This document shows positions 29,134-41,815 of a stretch of 64,000 nucleotides of DNA, one piece after another (the first letter of the stretch is position 1; every line of letters starts with the position of its first letter). The notes below the pieces were generated by a model. That model was not told the DNA's origin and ran no database searches. It worked only from the letters and a program-made list of their open reading frames with translations. Origin of the DNA: Vulcanimicrobium alpinum (GTDB lineage: Bacteria; Vulcanimicrobiota; Vulcanimicrobiia; Vulcanimicrobiales; Vulcanimicrobiaceae). A program made the position numbers and the translations under genes. Location of the stretch: contig NZ_AP025523.1 of assembly GCF_027923555.1 (NCBI RefSeq), forward strand, positions 2,980,484 to 3,044,483, read 5' to 3'.

Positions 29134-29952
29134 TCAGGCCGCGGATAACCGTGAGTTTGGGGTAGTGCGATGATGCTCGATGAACTCGGCCGGCGTCAAG
29201 CCGCCGAGCGCGGTGTGGGGTCGGCGATGGTTGTAATCGACACGCCATGCTTCGATCGCGGTGCGAGCGTGGAAGAGCGTGGGAAAGGCGTGCTCGTTGA
29301 GTAACTCGTCTCGGAAACGTCCGTTAAAGCTCTCGACGCTGCCGTTCTGAGTCGGCTTGCCGGGTTCGATAAAGTGCAGCTCAACGTTGACCCGCGCGGC
29401 CCAGCCGAGCATCGCGTTGCTCGTGAACTCGGTTCCGTTGTCGAACTTGAGCGTCGGCGGTAGACCGCGCTCTTGCGCGAGACGTGAGAGCACGCGCACG
29501 ACACGCTCGCCGGTGAGCGAGAAGTCGACTTCGATGCCGATCGACTCTCGGGTGAAGTCGTCGATAATCGTCAGCGAGCGAAACTTTCGCCCGTTGCTAA
29601 GCGCGTCGTGTACGAAGTCGAGCGACCAGCGTTCGTTCGGCCGCGTGACCGGCGGCACGACGTTGCCACGGACGTATCGTACGCCACGCTTACGTCGACT
29701 GCGCAGCTGTAGACCAGCGTTGCGATAGATCCGATGAACTCGCTTGTGGTTCACGACGAAGCCTTCGCGGCGCAGCATGATCGTGAGCCGGCGGTAGCCG
29801 AACCGACGGCGTTCTGCGGCGAGCGCCTTGAGCCGCTCGAGCAACGCCGGATCGTCCGTCCGCCGCACGCGATACTGCGCGACGGATCGCGGACAACGCG
29901 CGATGCGGCATGCGGCGCGTTGGCTCACACCGAGGTCTTGCAGGGCCCTCAC
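29134..29952 (-). CDS. IS3-family transposase orfB (DDE integrase)
   Basis: A 272-residue DDE transposase. An N-terminal HTH-like region ([20 protein letters not shown]) is followed by HRRPHT-type core motifs: [13 protein letters not shown] (first Asp), [12 protein letters not shown] (second Asp) and [17 protein letters not shown] (Glu), ending [19 protein letters not shown]. The frame is complete. Natural continuation from orfA requires joining ELIAK to [15 protein letters not shown] across an A5 run near 29980. That is +1 (or -2) relative to orfA, not the -1 shift typical of IS3, so a one-base change in the A run may have altered production of the fusion. Confidence 0.88.
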
Positions 29953-30241
29953 CGCGGCTTTTCGCTGCGAGGGCCCCAGGAGTTTTTGCGATTAGCTCTT
30001 TCATCGCGTCGTTCTCGAGCGAAAGGTTCGCGATGATGCGCTTCATGCGCCCGTTCTCGTCTTCGAGCACGCGACCGCGGGCGATCTCGCTGCTCTGCAT
30101 GCCGCCGTACCGGGATTTCCAGGCGGAGATGGTGTTCGGATGAACGCCGTGTCGACGGCCGAGCTCGATGAACGAGGCGCCGGCGTCGTGTTCTCGGAGG
30201 ATCGAGACGATCTGCGTCTCGGTGAAGCGGGACTTCCGCAT
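29690..30241 (-). CDS. IS3-family orfA (HTH protein)
   Basis: The first about 87 residues ([20 protein letters not shown], then [18 protein letters not shown], then a leucine-rich coiled segment to MKELIAK) are a standard IS3 orfA helix-turn-helix protein. After the A5 run the frame continues without family resemblance to 29690, antisense-like to nothing known. The extended tail is probably an artefact of a one-base change in that run. The start is ATG at 30241. Confidence 0.75.
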
Positions 30242-30304
30242 GCGGGCTTCCTTTCGGCCCATCGGCCGGGGAAACCCACGGTATCAACTGACCCGGATCA
30301 CCGG

Positions 30305-33347: not shown

Positions 33348-34154
33348 GTGCCAATCGAAAGCGAACCTCTCCTGAACGTCGAGCGCGTCCGCGGCGCGCT
33401 CGCGGGCACGTCGTTCGCCGACGTGCGCTACGTGCGCGAGACCGGGAGCACGAACGACGACGCGGCGGCCCTGCTCGGCGATCCCGCCGCAGCGGGACGC
33501 ACGCTCGTCGCGGAGTTCCAAACGGCCGGCAAAGGACGCAAGGCCGGACGCGCGTGGATCGCGCCGGCGGGGAGCGCGCTGCTGTTCACGGCCGTGCTGC
33601 CGCAGGCGGTGCCGGCCTCGGCGCTGTGGGCCGTTCCGTTCTGGACGGCGCTGGCAGTCGCCGACGGCGTCGAGGAAGGGAGCGGGGTGCGGCTGGACCT
33701 GCGCTGGCCCAACGACTGCGATCTGCGCGGACGGAAGGTCGCCGGGATCCTCTGCGTCTCGCGGATCGTCGGCGCGACCGCGTGGGTCGGCTGCGGCGTG
33801 GGGATCAACCTTCGCCGTCCGGACGACCCCGCGGTCGCCGCGATCGAACCGGCGCCCGCGTATCTCTCCGACGCCGCGCCCGACGTGGAACGCGAAACCG
33901 TGCTCGCCGCGATCCTCGGCGCGATGGACGGACTCCTCGACGTGCTCGAACGGCCCGACGACGCGGCGGGCGCGTGGGAGGAACGCGCGGCGCTGCGCGG
34001 GACGCGCTACCGGCTGCGGCTCGACGCCGACGGCAGCGAGATCGACGGCGCGGCGCAGTCGCTCGACCGCGAAGGCGGGCTTGTCGTCGCGACGGCGCAC
34101 GGAATACGTACCGTGCACCTCGGCGACGCGCGGGTCATCCCTCCGTCACCCTGA
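33348..34154 (+). CDS. birA: Biotin-[acetyl-CoA-carboxylase] ligase (short form)
   Basis: A 268-residue biotin protein ligase without the N-terminal DNA-binding domain, so it attaches biotin to carrier proteins but should not repress biotin genes. Motifs are ETGSTNDDAAALL, the biotinoyl-AMP loop FQTAGKGRKAGRAW (usually GRGRxGR), LRWPNDCDLRGRKVAGIL near residue 120 and VGCGVGINLRR. A C-terminal SH3-like domain ends the protein. The GTG at 33348 is used. The last codons lie in a variant copy of the palindromic repeat. Confidence 0.92.
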   Translation: MPIESEPLLNVERVRGALAGTSFADVRYVRETGSTNDDAAALLGDPAAAGRTLVAEFQTAGKGRKAGRAWIAPAGSALLFTAVLPQAVPASALWAVPFWTALAVADGVEEGSGVRLDLRWPNDCDLRGRKVAGILCVSRIVGATAWVGCGVGINLRRPDDPAVAAIEPAPAYLSDAAPDVERETVLAAILGAMDGLLDVLERPDDAAGAWEERAALRGTRYRLRLDADGSEIDGAAQSLDREGGLVVATAHGIRTVHLGDARVIPPSP

Positions 34155-34242
34155 GCATGTCGAAGGGCGGAGAGGGACGTGCACGCAGGGCGCGGCTCGC
34201 ATCGGCGTGATCGCGGCTGCCCTTCGACAAGCTCAGGGTGAC
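34145..34242. repeat. Palindromic repeat, locus 3 (variant arms)
   Basis: Inverted arms at 34145-34166 and 34219-34242 use GTCACCCTGAG instead of GTCACGCTGAG, a compensated variant, since both arms carry the change. The locus lies between convergent birA and the small minus-strand gene and includes the birA stop codon. Confidence 0.8.
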
Positions 34243-34270
34243 GAGGGGGCTCGACCCGCTCAGGGGGGCG

Positions 34271-34486
34271 TTATTTTACGACGCCGCCGAGGGCGACGTT
34301 GGCGGCGGTGAGGGCGGTGAGCGCCTTCGACTCGAGGGAGCCTTCGATGCTCAGCGCGAGGTTGGCGGACGCGGCGACCGTCGCCGGTTTGGGGATCATC
34401 TTCGCGGAGACGCCGTGATCCTTGAGCGCCTTCGTGGCGATCATCGTGTCGGCGTTCGACGCGAAGAACAGAACGACGTCAGGCAT
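34271..34486 (-). CDS. DUF3343-like small protein (putative Se/S-carrier type)
   Basis: A 71-residue protein beginning MPDVVLFFASNADTMIATKA, with GVSAKMIPKPATVAASANLA in the middle. The layout (N-terminal strand, helix, then an Ile-Pro-x-Pro motif before a Ser/Gly turn) matches DUF3343, whose better-known members are putative Se/S carrier proteins. The usual Cys in the turn is replaced here by Asn, so that chemistry is doubtful. It is translated right after the sensor gene (three-base gap), suggesting a link to the chemoreceptor pair. Confidence 0.55.
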   Translation of the reverse strand: MPDVVLFFASNADTMIATKALKDHGVSAKMIPKPATVAASANLALSIEGSLESKALTALTAANVALGGVVK

Positions 34487-34489
34487 CGA

Positions 34490-35857
34490 TCACTTCGCGC
34501 CGGTCACCAACTCGTCGAGTCCCGCCGCGACTTCGTTGAGTTCGCCGACGCGCGCGACGGCCTGCTTGGTGCGTGACGCCATCTCGGTCGCGAGCGTGTC
34601 GATGACGACGATGTCGCTGAGGATCTCGGCGTTGAGCGCCGAGGCGGCGAGGATCGCCTCGGACGCCGCCGGCTGCGTCGCAACCGCGTGGCCGTTCCCC
34701 GACGCGCCGTTGCTGCTCGGCGCGTGCGCACCGGTCGCCGCCCGCATGAGCAGATCGCCTTGCCGCTCCACCGCTTCGCGCGTCTGCGCGATGTGATCGC
34801 CCGAAACTTCGCTGCCGACGATGACGACCGAGAGCTCCTTGGCCGACGCGCGCACCTGACGGCTGCGCGCCCCGATCTGGCGACAGACGCGCTCGACGAC
34901 CGGCAGCGCGATCAGCGCCGCGATCGCGATCCCGACCAGTCCCCACAGCAGGAGCGATCCGAGCGTGTGCCGCTGCACCTCCGCGAACGCCGAGAGCGGG
35001 ACGCCGAACCAGCGCTGCGCGATGACGTCGTTCTGATCGTTGAGCACCGGCTCGACGCGCACGAGATAGTCGAGGCCGCCTTCGTTGTCGACGCCTTCGT
35101 ACGGCCGCTTCACGACCGCGATCGCCGGCGGTGTCATCTCGTCGACCAGGCGCGTGCCGTCCTGGCGCGAGATCGAACTGGAGATCACTTCGTTCCCGAA
35201 CAGGATCGCGGCTTTCCCGCCCAGCGCGTGCGCCGCTTGATCGACGACGTCGTAGTAGTGGTTCATCAGCAGCCCGCCGTACACGGCGCCGATCGTGCGC
35301 TCGTTCTGATCGGAGACCGGCGCCGCGGCGATCAGGCCGAGCCCGTCCACGACCCCTTCGCGCCCCGACGTCGTCGCTTCGATCTGCGGCACGAGCTGTT
35401 CGGGTTCGAGTTCGTCGTGCGGGACGCGCGCCGCCGTTGTGACGGTCTCGCCGCTGAGCGCGCGGGCGACGTACGGCGATCGCAGCAGCGCGCCGGGCGG
35501 CCCGGCGTTGGCGCGCGCGAGCACCCGGCCCTTCACGTCGACGACGGTGAGGAACGAGAGTCCGCCCTGCCGCTCGATCCCGCTGAGCGCGTCTTCGAGC
35601 GCCTTCCCGTTGTGCGCGACGAGCGCACGGCGCACCGACTCGTTGATCGCCGACTGCGTGACGAGAAGCTGGACCTGGTCTTTCTTCGTGTCCCAGTAGC
35701 CGGCGAATCCGGTCGAAGCGCTCGTCACCTGCTGCGCGGCGAGCTTGTTCAAGTCGGTCGCCATCGTCTGCCGCGCGGCGACCGCGCTGATCGCGCCAGA
35801 GATCACGATGGCGACGAGCATCGTCCCCACCATCTTGGTGCGCAGGCCGATCTTCAT
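34490..35857 (-). CDS. Membrane sensor with periplasmic CACHE-type domain, no signalling domain
   Basis: A 455-residue protein. Membrane segment 1 is at about 8-28, a large extracytoplasmic region at 30-300 has CACHE-type text ([20 protein letters not shown], then [20 protein letters not shown]), and membrane segment 2 is at about 310-330. The remaining cytoplasmic part is short and helical ([20 protein letters not shown] to the end). There is no methyl-accepting or kinase domain. Its ATG overlaps the stop of the upstream chemotaxis transducer, which lacks a periplasmic domain, so the two products may work as a split receptor. Confidence 0.8.
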
Positions 35858-37482
35858 AACGGGGTTTCCTCCCTGGCGTCCGCGATCGCGTAGCGTCCGA
35901 GCAGCGCGTCGATCGACGACGCGCGCTGATTCATCTCCTCGACCGACTCGAGGATCCGCTGGGCCGCCGACGTCACCTCGGCGTTCACGTACGTCAGCAC
36001 CTCGACCGACGACGCGTTCTGCGACGAGATCGAGGTGATCGCATCGAAGGCGCGCGAGACTTCGCCGGAGTGTGACGCCATGCGCGTGGTGGCGGCGAGG
36101 TTTGCGCCGACGGAGTGCGTGATCTCCTCGATCGACCGGATCACGCGGAACGTGTTCTCCGCCATCGAGCGCGTCACGGTGCTGATCTGGCCGATCTGCC
36201 GGTTCGCGCCGAGCACCGCCTCGACGATCTCGCGCAGCGCCTCCGACGCGCTGTCCGTCGACTTGACGCTCTGCTCGACCCGTTCGTTCAAGCGCGTCAT
36301 CGCGTCGGTCACCTGGGCGATGACGCTCTGCGTCGAGCCGATGTGGCCGGCGATCTCCTTGGTGGCCTGGACGCTGCCGTCGGCGAGCTTGCGGATCTCG
36401 GATGCCACCACGGCGAAGCCGCGGCCGTGCTCGCCGGCGCGCGCCGCCTCGATGGCGGCGTTGAGCGCGAGCAGGTTCGTCTGTTCCGCGATCCGGTCGA
36501 TCACTTTGACGATGTCGCCGATTTGATCGGAGTTGTCGCCGAGGCGGCGGATGTCGTCGCCGAGTTCGTCGATCGTCGAGCGGATCGTCGCCATCGCGTC
36601 GACGATGGTGTGAATCGCCGTCCCGCCGCGGTCGGCGGTCAGCGTCGTCTCCGACGAGATGCTGAGCAGAGAGTCGACCTGCGCGGAGACCTCTTCGATC
36701 GATGCCGACATCGCGGTGACCGAGACGGCGGTTTCGTCGAGCGAACGCGTCTGCTGTTCCGCCGATCCGGCGAGCTCGCCGATCGCATCCGCCATCGAAC
36801 GGACCTTCGTGAGCGCACCCTCGACGATCGTGCTCTGCTCGACGATCCCGTCCTCGAGCTGCTTCTGCGCGATCGCGCCGCCCTCGATGACCGCGAGCGA
36901 ACTCGACGCCGTCGACCGCAGTTCGGCGCCGGAACGCTGCAGCGTCGCGGTTTCGCCGTGCATCGAACGCAGAAACTCGCGGATGCCGAAGATCAGTTTG
37001 TTCAAGCCGACCGCGAGCTCGCCGAGCGGCCCGTCGGCGACGGCGAGGTTCTTGGTGAGGTCGCCGCCGGCGACTTCGCGCACGCCGGTGTTGAGCGCGG
37101 CGATGCTCTGCGCGAGCGTCCCGCTCGCCGGGAGCGCGACCCGCTCGCCGCCGAGCAGCGCAAGGCTCAGTTCATCGCCGTCGCCGCGCGCCGCCGCCGC
37201 GTCGCCGAGCATCCACGCGAGTCCCGTGCCGCCTGCGAAGACCGCGAGCGCGCTCAGGATCGCCGCCTCGGAGCCGCTCGGATGCGCGAGAAACGCCGCG
37301 ATGCCGCCGGCGAGTGCGGCGCCGATCGCCGTCAAGCGCCCCGCCGCAAGGGCGGCGAAACCGACCGCGACCAGCGCAACCGGATCGAGCTCCGGGAACC
37401 GCGGACAGCCCGCAAACAGGGCCGCCGCGATCACCGCGACGGCTCCGATGACGAGACGGCCGGGCGACGCTTGGCGACGCAC
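35854..37482 (-). CDS. Methyl-accepting chemotaxis protein without periplasmic domain
   Basis: A 542-residue transducer. Three or four hydrophobic segments in the first about 95 residues are joined by very short loops. A HAMP-like linker follows ([20 protein letters not shown]), then a long coiled coil with the conserved hairpin tip [18 protein letters not shown] and [17 protein letters not shown] near residue 340. This is the CheA/CheW-interacting region. No ligand-binding domain is present, and the next gene encodes a membrane CACHE protein lacking a signalling domain. The four-base overlap implies matched production. No che genes are in the window. The start is provisional. Confidence 0.88.
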
Positions 37483-40155: not shown

Positions 40156-40161
40156 CGTCAA
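40156..40161 (-). promoter_or_regulatory. -35 half of the IS110 circle-junction promoter
   Basis: TTGACG on the minus strand, overlapping the transposase stop codon. When the element's ends are joined with the CT core, it lies exactly 17 bases before TATGAT of the other end. Confidence 0.65.
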
Positions 40162-40825
40162 GCCGATACGGGTTGATAGGGCCGCTGATTCTTGAGTAGC
40201 GAGTAAGCCAGGCGCACGAGCTTGTGCATCACCGCCACGATGATTTGCTTGCCGCTCTTACCGCGCGCTTCGAGGCGATCGGCGAGCTCCTTGAAGGCCG
40301 GGACTTTGCGCTTTGCCGTCAGGGCAGCCATGTAGAGTGCCCGCCGGAGCTTCGCGTTGCCTGTCTTGCAAATGCGCGGCTTGCCCTTCACCGAGGTCCC
40401 GGACTGCCGCTCTGCCGGCGTAAGGCCGGCATACGCCGCTGCGGCTTTGGCACTATGGAGCCGATGCACCGGCAACTCCGCAAGCACGTTTGCCGCTGTC
40501 AAGGACGCGACGCCTGGTATGGTCTGAAGAAGCTGCGCGTTCCGGCTTAGCGTGACATCCGAGCAAAGAACACCTTGGATCTGCGACTCGATCTGCTTGA
40601 CCATCTCCGCGATACCGACCAGATGCGTTTCGTTCATTTTGAGCAGCGTTGCTCCGACGGCGACGGATTGCACGATCTGCGTAAGGGCAATACGCTGCGC
40701 GATGAGCTGGTCGCGATACGCCAGCAAACCGCGCAGGGACAGGATTTCGTCGCTATCAGGCTCCCAGAGCGCGGGGCGCTCGGAGGCGCAGAATTGGGCC
40801 AGCATTCGAGCGTCGACCGCATCGG
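40158..40825 (-). pseudogene. IS110 transposase, C-terminal part
   Basis: The frame starts in VDARMLAQFCASERPALW and continues through LLQTIPGVASLTAANVLAEL and SGTSVKGKPRICKTGNAKLR to LLKNQRPYQPVSA. It is the helical linker and Transposase_20 part, which holds the catalytic serine region (RQSGTSV). It is separated from the N-terminal part by the IS3-like insertion. Removing that element plus one copy of GCATCGG restores an exact in-frame fusion (KTDA-VDAR) of 317 residues. Confidence 0.92.
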
Positions 40826-40879
40826 AACTTGTCAAGTAATTTGATACCAGCAGGTTGCGGGAGTTTGTGAGCATCTTGG

Positions 40880-41815
40880 TCATGCGGCGATGTCGGCAGC
40901 CTTCGACTCGTTGATCCAGACTTGGCTCGGAATTGTTGCGAGTTTTGGCGCGCCAGCGGCAAAGCGATGCGGCTGCAACGCATAAGCAGCGATCATCGTC
41001 TTGTGACGCGCGGCGAGGATGGCTTCGCCCTGACCGAAGTGTACCGCCGCCGGCGTCAACATCGCAATTCCCGAATGGCGATGCTCGTTGTTGTACCACA
41101 TAAAGTACGGCGAGCAGAACGCGTACGAGTCCTCAAGCGATCCGAACGCCGATGGAAACGTCGGCTGGTACTTCAGCGTCTTGAACGACGATTCGATGAA
41201 CGGATTGTCGTCGCTCACGCGCGGGCGGCTATAGGATCGCGCGACGCCCATCTTGTCGAGAAGATCACACACTGGCTGCGCGGTCATCTCGGTTCCGCGA
41301 TCGCTGTGAACGACGGCTTGTCGCGGCTCGATTCCTTCGCGCAGGAGCGTCGCACGAATGAATTCCGCCGCGATCTCGGCGTTGGCACGCCGCACGATGG
41401 TCCAGCCGACGACGTATCGGCTGAAGATGTCGATCATCACGAGCAACGAAAAGTACACGCCCTTGACGGAACTCGGCAACTTGGTGATATCCCACGTCAA
41501 GACTTGTCGCGGCGCGTTAGCAACCAGGCGTGGCTTCTCATGCGCGGGATGGCGCGCAAGACGCCGCCGTTCGCGGACTTGCGCGTTTGCTCGTAGGATG
41601 CGATACATCGTGCTTACCGAACACAGATACGTTCCCTCGTCGAGCAGGCGCGTGAAGACTTGCGGCACGGCAAGGTCTGCAAATCGCTCGCAGCACAACA
41701 CCGCCGCGACATACCGGCGCTCGGCTTCGCTCAATGCGTTGCGGCGCGCGATCGTCTTGAGCAGCGCGCGCTCGCCTGCGGGTTTGCGCCGCCGACGTAA
41801 CGTCGAGCGGCTCAC
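40880..41815 (-). CDS. IS3-like transposase orfB
   Basis: A 311-residue DDE transposase: VLTWDITKLPSSVKGVYFSL (first Asp), VVHSDRGTEMTAQPVCDLL (second Asp) and NPFIESSFKTLKYQPTFP (Glu), ending near WYNNEHRHSGIAMLTPAAVH. The GTG at 41815 begins VSRSTLRRRR. The frame is open to the end of orfA, and related text (LELCATAPERATCLALG) precedes the GTG, so the native product may include about 20 more residues by frameshifting from orfA. Confidence 0.88.
   Translation of the reverse strand: MSRSTLRRRRKPAGERALLKTIARRNALSEAERRYVAAVLCCERFADLAVPQVFTRLLDEGTYLCSVSTMYRILRANAQVRERRRLARHPAHEKPRLVANAPRQVLTWDITKLPSSVKGVYFSLLVMIDIFSRYVVGWTIVRRANAEIAAEFIRATLLREGIEPRQAVVHSDRGTEMTAQPVCDLLDKMGVARSYSRPRVSDDNPFIESSFKTLKYQPTFPSAFGSLEDSYAFCSPYFMWYNNEHRHSGIAMLTPAAVHFGQGEAILAARHKTMIAAYALQPHRFAAGAPKLATIPSQVWINESKAADIAA

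Follow-up and report, generated by a model that had tools for sequence, protein, structure and literature searches.

A probable split chemoreceptor composed of a Cache sensor, an MCP-type transducer and a DUF3343 protein in the family of Vulcanimicrobium alpinum

Chemoreceptors are usually drawn as one chain leading from the ligand pocket to the kinase. In the window analyzed here, which is the whole 64,000-nucleotide stretch of contig NZ_AP025523.1 of Vulcanimicrobium alpinum WC8-2, a member of a group of little-known soil and volcano bacteria, a methyl-accepting chemotaxis protein (MCP), a membrane-anchored Cache protein and a small DUF3343 protein are encoded by three consecutive genes (hereafter, the set; Table 1). 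This arrangement raises the question whether the three proteins form one receptor system, as had been proposed in the initial annotation of this DNA. The proposal is partly supported by the results presented below, and we consider it probable that the three genes encode one split chemoreceptor, in which a Cache sensor, an MCP transducer and a DUF3343 adaptor act together.

Anatomy of the three proteins

The MCP carries the MCPsignal domain (PF00015), which scored 149 bits against a cut-off of 34.6 in profile searches. In the AlphaFold model, four membrane helices were predicted at residues 8–24, 30–47, 49–65 and 72–98, followed by the two helices of the signalling hairpin (residues 152–348 and 350–529); model confidence is low for the membrane helices and drops to very low for the HAMP region (residues 94–150). 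Since the loops between the membrane helices do not exceed about six residues in this model, the claim that the protein combines membrane helices and a full signalling hairpin with the absence of a periplasmic domain holds. Of all parts of the MCP, the membrane domain is the least conserved, with a few positions being nearly invariant, and the hairpin tip is invariant throughout an alignment (A4) of the window protein with 25 further MCPs (three paralogues excluded). Other MCPs of two genomes (G034 and G055; 673, 674 and 696 aa) have, as judged by eye, a long N-terminal region between hydrophobic stretches, as in one-piece receptors.

Table 1. Features of the three-gene set in the window (positions of the window; residues of the respective protein)
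Feature	Position	Strand	Basis
MCP-type transducer, 542 aa, without periplasmic domain	35854..37482	−	ORF listing, GTG start; PF00015 1.3e-43; AF2
MCP membrane domain, four predicted helices, residues 8–98, short loops	37189..37461	−	Hydropathy and AF2, pLDDT about 55–69
MCP weak HAMP match, residues 121–164	36991..37122	−	PF00672 E = 0.022, under curated cut-off
MCP predicted cytoplasmic signalling hairpin, residues 152–529	35896..37029	−	AF2 helices; PF00015 on residues 276–456
MCP hairpin tip, residues 336–351	36430..36477	−	Every residue invariant in 26 aligned sequences
Four-base ATGA overlap, MCP stop/Cache start	35854..35857	−	GGGAGGA just upstream
Membrane-anchored Cache sensor, 455 aa, without signalling domain	34490..35857	−	PF17203 8e-9, PF17202 5e-8; AF2; Foldseek
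Cache region, residues 31–295, expected outside the cytoplasm	34973..35767	−	Profiles, AF2, Foldseek
Predicted cytoplasmic tail helix 1, residues 327–373, strongly conserved motif VGSEVSGDH	34739..34879	−	Alignments, AF2
Predicted cytoplasmic tail helix 2, residues 397–451	34505..34669	−	AF2 helix 397–451
DUF3343/Se_S_carrier protein, 71 aa, canonical Cys-Gly replaced	34271..34486	−	PF11823, 27-sequence alignment

The second protein had been described as membrane-anchored, with a CACHE domain and no signalling domain, and this description was borne out by profile matches to sCache_3_2 (8e-9) and sCache_3_3 (5e-8), by the absence of MCPsignal in the profile search and by two hydropathy peaks (residues 9–27 and 303–321), which correspond to two predicted membrane helices. 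A weaker third peak (residues 401–419) of the window protein was not flagged in the relatives shown. The AlphaFold model (mean pLDDT 80; loop 376–397 under 50) consists of a Cache fold and a two-helix tail, formed by helices 287–373 and 397–451 and predicted to be cytoplasmic. The profile matches together with the double-Cache fold place the protein in the Cache superfamily. Using Foldseek, the top matches comprised integrative MCP models (McpB, McpC), with poor overall superposition, together with sensor domains from DctB, LuxQ and PctA (TM-scores of 0.53–0.69, by target). At the sequence level, the second half of the Cache region (residues about 204–305) matches the sensor domains of formate chemoreceptors (8py1, 4e-5; 8py0, 3e-4). 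As a single-sequence PDB search with the Cache protein returned no match, its relation to one-piece Cache receptors is a distant one. A formate-like ligand is a guess.

The two-helix tail is absent from the initial annotation. Among first-type Cache orthologues, the Cache region is 55% identical, compared to 63% and 65% for tail helices 1 and 2, respectively. An origin of the tail as a remnant of an MCP hairpin was considered and rejected, as profile comparison with the MCP did not rise above background: helix 2 gave a best P of 0.009 (reversed control 0.045; not significant), and helix 1 a P of 0.33, for which the reversed control was better (0.06).

The third protein had been called DUF3343-like, DUF3343 being the older name of the Se_S_carrier family (PF11823). 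Its family assignment stands, with 31.2 bits against the curated cut-off of 25, but the likeness does not extend to the canonical Cys-Gly motif, which presumably carries selenium or sulfur in this family. In an alignment (A3) of the window protein with 26 of the 31 closed sequences from named loci, this motif is replaced in 27/27 sequences, the Cys by Ala (16) or Ser (11) and the Gly by Asn (27). A Cys three residues beyond the lost motif is found in 21 of the 27 sequences, that of WC8-2 not being among them. The Cys-Gly is kept in two relatives from the phylum (L167 of G005 and L168 of G014), the former lying, by eye, among selD-like and yedF-like genes. A PDB search with the DUF3343 alignment gave no match.

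Arrangement and co-inheritance of the set

The annotated four-base overlap between the MCP and Cache genes and the three-base gap to the DUF3343 gene were confirmed in their coordinates on the minus strand, with the DUF3343 gene starting at 34486. Given the GGGAGGA just upstream of the ATGA, translation of the Cache protein probably begins at a separate ribosome site. Of 40 regions fetched, 37 concerned set loci; MCP matches below 50% identity were excluded and gene starts were picked closest to that of the window protein. The overlap measures exactly four bases in all 31 loci, one per genome, in which both genes are visible, and the two genes accordingly lie in different frames in 31/31 loci; a sensor and a signalling domain joined in one chain, as in one-piece Cache chemoreceptors, are not found here. 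An overlap fixed in this way is more than chance. The gaps between the Cache and DUF3343 genes amount to 2–18 bases in 32 of 35 pairs and to 136–175 in the other three.

As far as the contigs extend, the whole neighbourhood is kept in the family, in the order ligA-nnr-acpS-metzincin-[set]-birA-ndk-eno; the recognised neighbours of the set are housekeeping genes. No other signalling gene was recognised adjoining the set in the neighbourhood of the fetched loci. Because this synteny comprises the entire neighbourhood, gene order is weak evidence, and we rejected it as proof of function; the fixed overlap and the closed set-less sites described below weigh more. Two further observations were made by eye around the set in the window, namely an inverted repeat of the CCCTGAGC..TCGAAGGG type between birA and the DUF3343 gene (34148–34245), and transposase/integrase-like ORFs on both flanks (29690–30262 and 40158–41815).

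Among the 149 phylum genomes searched, a Cache match (E<=1e-5) was obtained in 46, comprising 45 genomes of the same family and G005. The latter was rejected as a distant member, since it reads, by eye, as a Cache-HAMP histidine kinase, and the set is confined to its own family in this sample. Of the 99 genomes of the family, 46 carry the MCP orthologue (E<=1.3e-68), 45 of these also the Cache gene, and the DUF3343 gene is likewise present in 45 genomes. There is a single exception of each kind: only G062 has an MCP without Cache, its MCP gene stopping 52 bases short of the end of the contig; only G069 has a Cache gene without DUF3343, its contig breaking off within the Cache gene; and only G126 has a DUF3343 gene without Cache, this gene being of a second kind (see below) and the contig that covers the expected site terminating in birA. 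A pattern scan of a collection in which 84,980 species are represented by one genome each, which detects stretches carrying both tail motifs, matched 82 stretches, 34 of which encode a relative; these lie in 33 loci titled Eremiobacterota or Eremiobacteria MAGs or just ‘bacterium’. Distant MCP relatives in f6 were not retained: in the fetched case (G008), the gene lies beside CheW-/CheA-like genes, and no Cache gene was found among the listed ORFs.

In view of the weakness of gene order as evidence, we examined the corresponding site in genomes lacking the set, using 20 of the 53 family genomes without an MCP orthologue. Two of these contigs end in birA (L141 and L157), and in 14 of the 18 readable sites metzincin and birA are immediate neighbours (<=55 bases separating the ends of the two matches). 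Of the other four sites, one has a 725-base gap, one holds other ORFs (G091, 3.5 kb), one is on a contig that begins 3.3 kb upstream of birA and includes neither metzincin nor the set, and that of G060 is occupied by the diverged MCP described below. The closing up of the neighbourhood in 14/18 sites indicates that the set behaves as a unit. Overall, the gene pair pointed out in the initial annotation proved to be conserved and co-inherited, together with the third gene, within one family.

Chemotaxis proteins and the state of strain WC8-2

CheW-domain matches, counted from genome lists compiled by hand, were present in 41/45 genomes with the set compared to 13/54 others (Fisher p 5e-12, kinship ignored). 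The genomes with the set and without a CheW match are G056 (93% complete), G069 (61%), G071 (88%) and G119 (86%); conversely, CheW occurs without a Cache match in thirteen family genomes.

Splitting the FHIPEP matches into a flagellar FlhA class (at least 703 bits) and a lower class (about 666 bits or less), 13 genomes with the set are without flagellar-class FlhA, a count that includes G114 (partial, 602.6 bits) and G116 and G056 (fragments), all three not safely placeable, as well as G111 (no match). In genus g36 (G110–G117), the set and CheW-domain matches are present in 8/8 genomes and no clear flagellar-class FlhA was found, with only partial FHIPEP matches in G114 and G116 and none in G111. 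T2SSE-type ATPases were detected in all three g36 genomes scanned; as they are also near-universal in the scanned genomes (10/10) and the controls (13/14), an output through pili in this genus is only a possibility. G110 and G117 each have a further MCP gene at a distance of about 5 kb from T2SSE-type ATPase genes.

According to the accessible text of PMC9758169, strain WC8-2 is a phototroph of the Eremiobacterota that bears pili and shows phototaxis, and flagella were not observed. Only the lower-scoring FHIPEP class is present in its genome, with no FlhA-class match. Its sole CheA gene (che locus, L083:7450-9427) contains an in-frame stop and a frameshift, with the adjoining CheY, CheC and CheW genes being open; otherwise, this CheA carries few changes at conserved sites (5/315, compared to 3/313 in G128). 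Both other MCP genes of the strain (L002, L004, L005) look interrupted, the first by a TAG and the second by a break in the frame. Of its two CheR matches, one is partial, and in CheW 3 of 90 otherwise invariant sites are changed, versus 0–1 of 87–88 in three genus mates. With CheA broken and flagella absent, the set may be idle in WC8-2, and we give an even chance to the reading that, in this strain only, it is a functionless vestige of a lost chemotaxis system, which is compatible with a split receptor elsewhere in the family. Against a vestige, all three ORFs of the set are intact, and changes at sites that are otherwise invariant are not in excess, with 4/109 for Cache (mates 1–5), 1/177 for the MCP (mates 1–5) and 0/35 for DUF3343 (mates 0–1), and relaxed selection on the set was rejected on these grounds; moreover, the strain still moves, by pili-driven phototaxis according to the accessible text of PMC9758169. 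An intact set in a strain with a broken CheA implies that CheA was lost only recently, or else that the set serves some purpose without it. Due to the broken kinase gene, the description as a split receptor fits the family rather than WC8-2 itself.

A two-chain receptor, its alternatives and additional sensors

How might the three proteins work together? In the split receptor that we favour, the Cache protein would bind a small extracytoplasmic ligand as a dimer, upon which its second membrane helix would move. Its two-helix tail would pack on the membrane-proximal part of the MCP dimer, that is, the HAMP region and the upper coiled coil, and thereby shift the state of the MCP hairpin, such that CheA could be controlled via CheW, where these exist. 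The DUF3343 protein, having lost its Se/S-carrier site, may serve as a soluble adaptor by which the binding of the sensor tail to the transducer is stabilised or modulated. This model draws on the joint occurrence of the MCP and Cache genes, the fixed overlap, the closed set-less sites, the weakened MCP of G060, the second Cache sensors and the repeated pair of G057 (both described below), the association with CheW, the invariant hairpin tip and the precedent of CetA/CetB. Arguments against it are the lack of significant profile similarity between tail and MCP, the synteny of the whole neighbourhood, the generally better conservation of the tail, the set genomes lacking CheW or flagellar-class FlhA, the family genomes having CheW but no Cache match, and the intact set of WC8-2 with its broken CheA.

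Alternatively, the MCP may sense alone through its four-helix membrane domain, responding for example to membrane state or energy level, with the Cache protein being an accessory or inhibitory regulator. We regard this as unlikely. The nearly invariant positions in the membrane domain would agree with it, but taken as a whole the domain is less conserved than any other part of the protein. Similarly, G060 (L158:2893-4626) has a diverged MCP alone at the site of the set, with a similar hydrophobic N-terminal region (by eye) and without Cache and DUF3343 matches; yet its signalling tip is altered and its signalling domain weakened (MCPsignal 58 bits compared to 135–149 in the other MCPs scanned), and no other MCP orthologue lacks a Cache match save at a contig end. 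A Cache protein that signals to a non-MCP partner and is merely co-transcribed with the MCP, a reading to which the conservation of the neighbourhood as a whole (gene order hence not being independent evidence) and the stand-alone membrane sensors followed by DUF3343 in six genomes, in stretches without a recognised MCP gene, lend some credit, is quite improbable in the face of the exact overlap in every locus, the joint presence and absence of the genes and the lack of any other recognised signalling gene beside the set.

The split receptor resembles the bipartite energy-taxis receptor CetA/CetB of Campylobacter and the CetBA2 system of Magnetospirillum, in which, as far as the accessible text of PMC12442639 describes them, a membrane-linked MCP without sensory domain is accompanied by a sensor encoded in a separate adjoining gene, the genes overlapping in Magnetospirillum. 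It differs in that CetB is, according to the same text, a small cytoplasmic PAS protein, binding FAD in CetB2 (PMC12442639), whereas the sensor of the set has two predicted membrane helices and a double Cache, its gene lying downstream of the MCP gene and being followed by DUF3343. As its sensor is not a PAS protein, the set would work like CetA/CetB without being a member of that type.

A second precedent comes from the sensory rhodopsins and transducers of haloarchaea, the SRI-HtrI and SRII-HtrII pairs, in which a membrane sensor and an MCP-type transducer are likewise two proteins from neighbouring genes; there, however, the sensor is a seven-helix photoreceptor, and neither Cache nor DUF3343 is involved. 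With the one-piece Cache chemoreceptors (PctA, McpB and the formate receptors 8py0 and 8py1), the set shares the Cache fold, but these carry sensor and hairpin in one chain, compared to two chains here. Searches of open-licence literature yielded no paper that deals with a split Cache receptor or with a part of DUF3343 in chemotaxis.

Four loci (G097, G089, G033 and G075) contain a second, diverged Cache gene upstream of the MCP gene, a remnant of which is present in G099. Mean identity between the first and the second type (68 comparisons) is 30% for the Cache region, compared to 42% for tail helix 1 and 46% for tail helix 2, the best conserved of these segments. The better conservation of the tail over the Cache region could result from the docking of two sensors to one transducer, although the retention of the tail is partly general, since it is also better conserved among ordinary orthologues. 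Moreover, the Cache-DUF3343 pair is repeated in G057.

A second DUF3343 gene was found in six genomes of the same genus as WC8-2 (G119, G120, G122, G123, G124 and G126) behind a gene for a stand-alone membrane protein of about 210–235 residues and about six helices (by eye), from which it is separated by 2–3 bases in L161, L162, L165 and L166, being close behind in L163 and overlapping in L164. Stand-alone modules of this kind are also present in G121, G099, G097 and G033, with no recognisable DUF3343 in the examined flanks, which speaks against a fixed partnership, as does the absence of the module from WC8-2 and G128 (see below). DUF3343 thus repeatedly accompanies sensors without an output part, though by no means every one. 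This recurrence led us to a broader reading, put forward tentatively and, on balance, rather doubtful, of a plug-in design of this family, in which output-less sensors would be made as proteins of their own and a repurposed DUF3343 adaptor, devoid of its Se/S-carrier site, would connect them in trans to a shared transducer. It is with the same reserve that the double Cache, the second Cache type and the multi-helix membrane module may be counted as plug-in sensors.

A natural split in 45 genomes, with extra sensors beside one transducer in four of them, would let the step from sensor helix to signalling hairpin be studied by mixing the individual parts, and the set offers a natural module for engineered sensors as well as a possible new job for DUF3343. 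More generally, the split suggests that bacterial sense organs may be of plug-in construction.

The multi-helix module itself had no match at a useful level in Pfam or NCBIfam and was not found in WC8-2 and G128 at E<=1e-4. Its loci together with the second DUF3343 gene are L161–L166 and L172–L177. Elsewhere in the phylum, the same module heads, as judged by eye, an MCP (G097 and G125), a histidine kinase and GGDEF-EAL proteins.
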